From positions 1 through 41,910 of the forward strand of contig JAQTNF010000032.1 of assembly GCA_028713995.1 (NCBI GenBank): 41,910 nt of DNA. The letters run 5' to 3'. The notes beneath the pieces were generated by a model. The model was not told where the DNA came from. It did no database searches and saw only the letters and a program-made list of their open reading frames with translations. The stretch is from Deltaproteobacteria bacterium. Lineage in GTDB: Bacteria; Myxococcota_A; Polyangia; JAAYKL01. A program made the position numbers and the translations under genes. Below are positions 11,658 to 12,883 of this stretch, piece by piece (the stretch's first letter is position 1; each line of letters opens with the position of its first letter).

Positions 11658-11748
11658 CGCGAAGGAGCGCTCATCCCGATGGCGAACACAGTGCTGGGCG
11701 GTGGTTGACGACGAACGCAGCGAGAGCGCGGTGCTTGGCGAGGGGTTC

Positions 11749-11836
11749 GTGATCACAAACGCCCACTTCATCCTGTACGTGGTGGACCAGCAGCGCAGCG
11801 CGCAATTCTACGCCAGCGCGCTGGGCATCCCCGCGC
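11749..11836 (+). pseudogene. 5' fragment of a glyoxalase/VOC-family gene
   Basis: From a GTG at 11749, preceded by GCGAGGGG, the frame encodes [20 protein letters not shown] and then [10 protein letters not shown]. This is the classic first beta strand and helix of vicinal-oxygen-chelate (glyoxalase/bleomycin-resistance) proteins. The coding homology stops at 11836, where groEL sequence begins in another frame. The rest of the gene (roughly 100 codons) is absent from the window. Confidence 0.7.
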
Positions 11837-12571
<735 letters not shown>

Positions 12572-12580
12572 CCCGCTCCC

Positions 12581-12608
12581 TTGATCCCCGGCCCTCCCCT
12601 GCTATCAT
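12581..12608 (+). promoter_or_regulatory. Promoter of the candidate selenoprotein gene, leaderless layout
   Basis: TTGATC (12581-12586) is followed after 16 bases by TATCAT (12603-12608), with TG one base before the -10 (TGCTATCAT). The ATG lies only 6 bases after the -10, so transcription would start at or next to the first codon. Confidence 0.55.
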
Positions 12609-12614
12609 CCATAC

Positions 12615-12830
12615 ATGGACCCTTCACGGAAAAGACGCCTCTCGTTCACCCTGGGCCTTGGGATCCTCGGCGCGGGCGCGGGGGGGGCCCTGGCCTTCCT
12701 CCTGAGGCAAACGGGCGCCTCGTGAAACATCCTCTGTTCGCCGGTGGTCACCGGCCTCCTGGGGGCGTGGATCGGCGGCTCCGTGGGCTCTGATCTGGGC
12801 CTGCGCTTCGGCGTCAAGCCGCGCGACTGA
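12615..12830 (+). CDS. Small membrane protein with in-frame TGA, candidate selenoprotein
   Basis: From the ATG at 12615 the frame encodes 36 residues (MDPSRKRRLSFTLGLGILGA, then GAGGALAFLLRQTGAS), a TGA at 12723-12725, and 34 further residues (NILCSPVVTGLLGAWIGG, then SVGSDLGLRFGVKPRD) up to a TGA at 12828-12830. Read through, it is a two-helix membrane hairpin in which the TGA residue and a cysteine four residues later sit in the loop (U-N-I-L-C). The second helix resembles, from memory, small redox proteins of the DUF6132 type, which carry two cysteines before a Gly-rich helix. A hairpin with a GGUC loop lies 20 bases after the TGA (see next entry). If selenocysteine is not inserted, this would be a nonsense-mutated pseudogene. 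No homologue comparison was possible. Confidence 0.55.
12740..12755 (+). promoter_or_regulatory. SECIS-like hairpin after the in-frame TGA
   Basis: GCCGGT (12740-12745) and ACCGGC (12750-12755) form a perfect 6-bp stem closing a GGTC loop. The loop starts 20 bases after the TGA. Bacterial SECIS elements have a small apical loop with an early G, 16-37 bases after the UGA. The E. coli fdhF element, as remembered, also has a GGUC loop, about 18 bases after its UGA. Chance occurrence in GC-rich DNA cannot be excluded. Confidence 0.5.
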
Positions 12831-12833: not shown

Positions 12834-12883
12834 CGAGGGGCTCGGCGGTCGACAGATCCCTCGAAAGGGATTAGGTAGAAACC

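Follow-up and report, generated by a model that had tools for sequence, protein, structure and literature searches.

What does an in-frame TGA mean in a gene for a very small membrane protein? The question is raised by an open reading frame on the forward strand at positions 12615-12830 of the window, by which we mean the whole 41,910-nucleotide stretch that was analysed. The frame begins with ATG, crosses a TGA at 12723-12725 and stops at a second TGA at 12828-12830, giving a product of 71 residues, MDPSRKRRLSFTLGLGILGAGAGGALAFLLRQTGAS-U-NILCSPVVTGLLGAWIGGSVGSDLGLRFGVKPRD, that is conserved in relatives. Standard gene calling would truncate it at codon 36. On re-reading the sequence, we found the frame running cleanly through the first TGA to the stop ending at 12830, exactly as a preliminary description had claimed. 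Since the same frame is terminated by TGA, UGA is not reassigned throughout. Hydropathy also agrees with the earlier claim of one helix before the TGA and another after it: there are two hydrophobic stretches, a putative first membrane helix at about residues 9-32 (12639-12710, + strand) and a putative second one at about residues 43-61 (12741-12797, + strand), the latter also seen in a structure model. This model, of low confidence (pLDDT 66), has a helix at residues 3-32, a loop and a helix at residues 43-61; among solved structures we found none matching the protein. The loop between the two stretches reads TGAS-U-NILC-SP, with the TGA at residue 37 and, four residues further on, the cysteine that had been noted there (Cys41, 12735-12737, + strand), presumably the resolving one. 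We consider it very probable, on the comparative evidence presented below, that this is a selenoprotein of a new family, built as a 71-residue helical hairpin in the inner membrane. This reading follows from the conservation of the UGA, the covariation of a downstream hairpin, the presence of the selenocysteine (Sec) machinery and the existence of a Cys counterpart.

The hairpin lies at 12740-12755 on the forward strand. Its 6-bp stem (GCCGGT/ACCGGC) is perfect and encloses the loop GGTC (12746-12749), which begins 20 nt after the UGA, precisely as first described. The loop resembles that of the E. coli fdhF SECIS itself. As in fdhF-type elements, the stem-loop comes right after the UGA and has a GG-initial loop at 20 nt, but the host protein is another one and the window stem, a candidate SelB target, consists of the 6-bp core only. 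The published bacterial SECIS model places a loop of 3-9 nt, starting with G, at 16-37 nt after the UGA (PMC13188914), and both the geometry of the window hairpin and the earlier statement that it falls within the bacterial range agree with this model. We took as defining features of a SECIS a G in the first two loop positions, a covarying stem and a loop 16-37 nt after the UGA. Rfam matched neither a SECIS nor any other family in this region or in its relatives. Taken alone, the window hairpin is weak evidence, suggestive only. A full stem arises in about 11% of synonymous recodings that keep the peptide fixed and follow local codon usage, and a comparable stem with a 4-nt loop follows 0.7% of the 864 TGA triplets of the window. 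An ordinary nonsense mutation, leaving a dead or truncated gene of 36 residues and a hairpin formed by chance, could thus draw on the fraction of window TGAs followed by a comparable stem (3.8%) and on a fold z-score of only -0.93, which is unremarkable.

The relatives give a different picture. A protein search of 96 genomes returned 10 matches, the window's own included, and all 10 have an in-frame TGA at the same codon. A profile search across 318 genomes of the class (Myxococcota) brought the TGA members to 13. We also scanned about 85,000 species with a DNA pattern made of the TGA, the spaced Cys, the Pro and the hairpin. It gave 35 matches, of which 14 score 45-103 bits against the family profile; the other 21 fall below 18 bits and were dismissed as chance. 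The good matches come from genomes labelled Myxococcota, Myxococcales, Deltaproteobacteria, Vicinamibacteria and Acidobacteria, plus one unplaced "Proteobacteria" MAG; eight were in genomes already found and six are new UGA members, Vicinamibacteria among them. Three further candidates (L046, L047 and L131) were also rejected as chance matches, being frames within other genes, lacking a start or having the wrong motif. With Cys in the core motif, a scan of the genome collection found 13 sequences, with no relative among them. In total, homologue searches allowing TGA, as had been proposed, found UGA at the window codon in 19 genomes with family members and in seven with more distant relatives of the DUF6132 type (see below), i.e., in 26 genomes. 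In an alignment of 17 family members, G34, U37, C41, P43, G47, G50 and G54 (window numbering) are invariant, the helices are glycine-rich, and the in-frame UGA is flanked by coding conservation on both sides.

The covariance test proposed for the hairpin was passed. We analysed the stem in the 12 members that were found by protein searches and align without gaps; the thirteenth, L039, lies outside this set, and its stem sits at the same position but differs, with the loop 21 nt after the UGA. All 72 stem cells of the 12 members are paired, with double changes at three of the six pairs, and the covariation is 0.485 against 0.200 in shuffled alignments (0 of 500 shuffles as high). The pair at columns 18-33 occurs as C-G, A-U, G-C and G-U, and that at columns 21-30 as G-C and A-U, with third codon positions on both sides; the pair at columns 23-28 occurs as U-A, U-G and C-G. 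Structures slid along the same alignment reach at most 58% pairing, and RNAalifold, unprompted, predicts the same six stem pairs. Under a codon-aware null, 1.6 full stems would be expected among the 12 members and 12 are observed; the product of the probabilities is 1e-11, or 6e-9 after thinning. Once the relatives are added, the putative SECIS is thus far above chance. A TGA shared by 26 genomes from two phyla, within a protein conserved on both sides and followed by a covarying stem, argues against a nonsense mutation. In practice, that explanation is refuted by the conservation of the UGA and of the reading frame past it, and we regard it as extremely improbable.

How does this family relate to known proteins? 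Alignment of the family profile with that of DUF6132 (PF19628) by hhalign gave a probability of 97.5% and an E value of 6.7e-12 over 53 ungapped columns, with the UGA falling on the second conserved Cys of DUF6132. The family shares with the Cys form of DUF6132 its length, its two-helix plan and the NP and YGA region. However, DUF6132 has the motif GC-x4-C-P-I-T-S-N-P, whereas the window family has U-x3-C and lacks the first Cys (17 of 17 members), so that the GC-x4-C motif is missing. Pfam gave the window protein no DUF6132 match, and the best E value among the 17 members was 0.004, below the cut-off. By these alignments, the family is a predicted Sec-using branch of the DUF6132 superfamily, the relation holding at the superfamily level only. 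Sweeps of the class and of the phylum also yielded proteins with the motif GCRTGTCPITSNPYxSTxYGAxMG, and the eight that were aligned are all DUF6132; a dedicated DUF6132 search in the class, which covered six genomes, added little. DUF6132-type proteins in which UGA stands in place of the second Cys codon were found in Myxococcota (L111 and L115) and Acidobacteriota (L127, L128, L130 and L132), together with an intermediate form with UGA, L126, also in Acidobacteriota. Three of them (L127, L128 and L130) are over the Pfam cut-off for DUF6132. The stems of L111, L115 and L132 have seven to nine pairs, with loops 18-20 nt after the UGA, and the hairpins of L126-L128 are weaker or shifted. In these DUF6132-type proteins the UGA lies at the same column as in the window family, but the first Cys is kept and there is no Cys41. 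Their C-x4-U would therefore be a second, separate Sec arrangement. We tentatively propose, giving it somewhat less than an even chance, that DUF6132 and the window family together make up a superfamily of very small membrane proteins with two helices and a redox role, in which Sec is used by Myxococcota and Acidobacteriota in at least two ways, as C-x4-U and as U-x3-C, the partner Cys having switched side.

The homologues without Sec bear on another explanation, in which the UGA is read by a suppressor or near-cognate tRNA carrying Trp, Arg or another residue, as a programmed read-through without selenium. An Arg homologue had been named in advance as an observation against a selenoprotein, and one does exist: L052 has the Arg codon CGA at the site, as such read-through might predict. 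Yet L052 is a paralogue whose genome also holds a UGA copy (L042), and one pair of the L052 stem is broken, so that the observation stands and the refutation does not. A relative with Cys at residue 37, which had also been anticipated, was found in L101, a true orthologue (GGS-C-TILCRPLVAG), and Cys is the residue at this site in the DUF6132 relatives too, against the read-through explanation. Each of the two non-Sec homologues has one broken pair of six, at different stem positions, a further argument against read-through without selenium. Losing one pair is the pattern expected where Sec use has been lost, which the two sequences appear to follow. These two homologues offer a small, naturally occurring experiment on how the SECIS works.

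The Sec machinery argues in the same direction. Of the components whose detection had been suggested, three are encoded in the window's own genome: selA (441 bits), selB (351 bits) and selC, i.e., tRNA-Sec (70.7 bits), with the anticodon TCA according to ARAGORN. Within the taxonomic family of the window genome, selA was matched in six of the seven TGA genomes, once as a fragment, and in none of the seven genomes without the gene (Fisher p 0.002). It is also present in all six of the further genomes found by the DNA pattern and in all seven genomes with UGA-containing DUF6132-type proteins, that of L126 included. Across the superfamily, selA is over the cut-off in 23 of 26 UGA genomes vs 11 of 27 Cys-DUF6132 genomes (Fisher p 3e-4, for genomes that are phylogenetically non-independent). 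The selA match is absent from two TGA genomes, G012 (86% complete) and G046 (67% complete), which is most simply explained by gaps in these MAGs. The co-occurrence of selA, and the presence of tRNA-Sec and SelB, leave read-through without selenium very improbable.

If the product is indeed a selenoprotein, what could it do? SelB and tRNA-Sec would recode UGA 37 using the downstream hairpin as SECIS. Sec would take the place of the second Cys of DUF6132, the first Cys would have been lost, and a new Cys would have arisen four residues past the Sec. The two residues might then form a reversible selenenylsulfide, U37-C41, by which the protein would work on the surface of the membrane as a relay for thiol/selenol redox reactions. 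The preliminary description had proposed such a U-x3-C redox pair, and we find it plausible. Basic residues at both termini suggest an N-in/C-in topology, which would make the Sec-Cys loop face the periplasm. From the Cys relatives, a partner of the relay could be a thioredoxin-fold or DsbD-type protein. Around 29 Cys-DUF6132 loci, which have 99 neighbouring proteins in all, the Pfam family seen most often is thioredoxin (PF00085), with 5 occurrences, and in three lineages a Cys-DUF6132 gene comes right after a thioredoxin gene (L107 and L118) or a DsbD-type gene (L049) on the same strand. The DsbD-like gene in question, from Myxococcota, lies at L049:2-1498 and has a thioredoxin-like end with WCAAC. 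Near the Sec-type genes, we found no thioredoxin-type CxxC motif.

A membrane thiol/selenol redox relay is the function we favour, though tentatively and as a possibility that falls a little short of even. Ranked next, and rather unlikely, is a selenoprotein in which the Sec and the Cys would serve to carry metals, sulfane sulfur or selenium itself, the protein being a small carrier or part of a transporter and not a dithiol relay. The YeeE/YedE and MerT selenoproteins, which are larger or of different architecture, share with the window family the combination of a membrane protein and a Sec motif; a match in sequence was not found. Both YeeE/YedE (PF04143) and MerT (PF02411) appear as membrane selenoproteins with a Sec motif in a 2026 catalogue (PMC13188914), so that a carrier would have precedents, and the glycine-rich helices would suit packing into an oligomer. 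However, genes for heavy-metal or sulfur transport are not recurrent nearby, and the thioredoxin and DsbD neighbours of the Cys-DUF6132 genes favour a redox role.

The surroundings of the gene add information on its expression. The claim that a -10 element precedes the ATG was supported and extended: a sigma-70-like promoter is predicted at 12581-12608 (+ strand), with the -35 element TTGATC, a 16-nt spacer and a TG-extended -10 element, TATCAT, ending 6 nt upstream of the ATG (one such pair found vs a mean of 0.0 in shuffled sequences). The selenoprotein gene is thus likely to have a leaderless start. Further upstream, positions 11690-12571 encode only the C-terminal part of groEL (Pfam Cpn60 positions 333-489), and the start of a VOC/glyoxalase-like gene, just upstream and in another frame, runs into groEL at about 11.91 kb. 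This junction could reflect truncation of a gene or a join made during assembly. A small inverted repeat without a T run (ATCCCT-CGAA-AGGGAT, window 12856-12872) lies between the selenoprotein gene and a downstream gene for a GGDEF protein. No relatives of the gene were found in viral contigs.

Five related genomes, from three genera, have a chemotaxis operon with genes for CheY, CheA, CheW and likely receptors directly downstream of the family gene (L133, L134, L136, L137 and L138). This arrangement, together with the GGDEF protein of the window, could indicate a redox sensor that reads the redox state of the periplasm and feeds it to the adjacent signalling genes. Against such a sensor, the chemotaxis arrangement is absent from the window genome and from the other lineages examined, and the protein itself has no signalling domain. 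We consider a sensor improbable, and keep the redox relay as the favoured reading.

Has this family been described before? A May 2026 review counts 119 prokaryotic selenoprotein families or subfamilies, and most of the characterised ones have thioredoxin-like folds (PMC13188914). To judge from its table, it includes no DUF6132-like family and no two-helix family with U-x3-C (PMC13188914). The U-x3-C spacing recurs in the LULAxC selenoprotein TsoA (NF045695), listed in the same catalogue (PMC13188914), but the motif flanking it in the window family is different. None of the 17 members was matched by the selenoprotein models of NCBIfam 20.0 at E values up to 10, and the Sec-containing DUF6132 proteins are likewise without a model. 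We found no descriptive paper on DUF6132 in the literature searched, which left subscription papers and preprints outside. Hence, the family is not yet in the catalogues searched, and may have been described earlier in such subscription papers or preprints.

These results could have consequences for both branches of the superfamily. A protein of about 70 residues, built as a hairpin of two membrane helices, is unlike the mostly thioredoxin-fold selenoproteins characterised so far. If our interpretation of the superfamily is true, few integral-membrane selenoproteins would be smaller than its Sec-containing members, which would represent a novel type of selenol relay in the periplasm. For DUF6132, they provide a functional lead, since its second conserved Cys lies at the position where Sec would be used instead.
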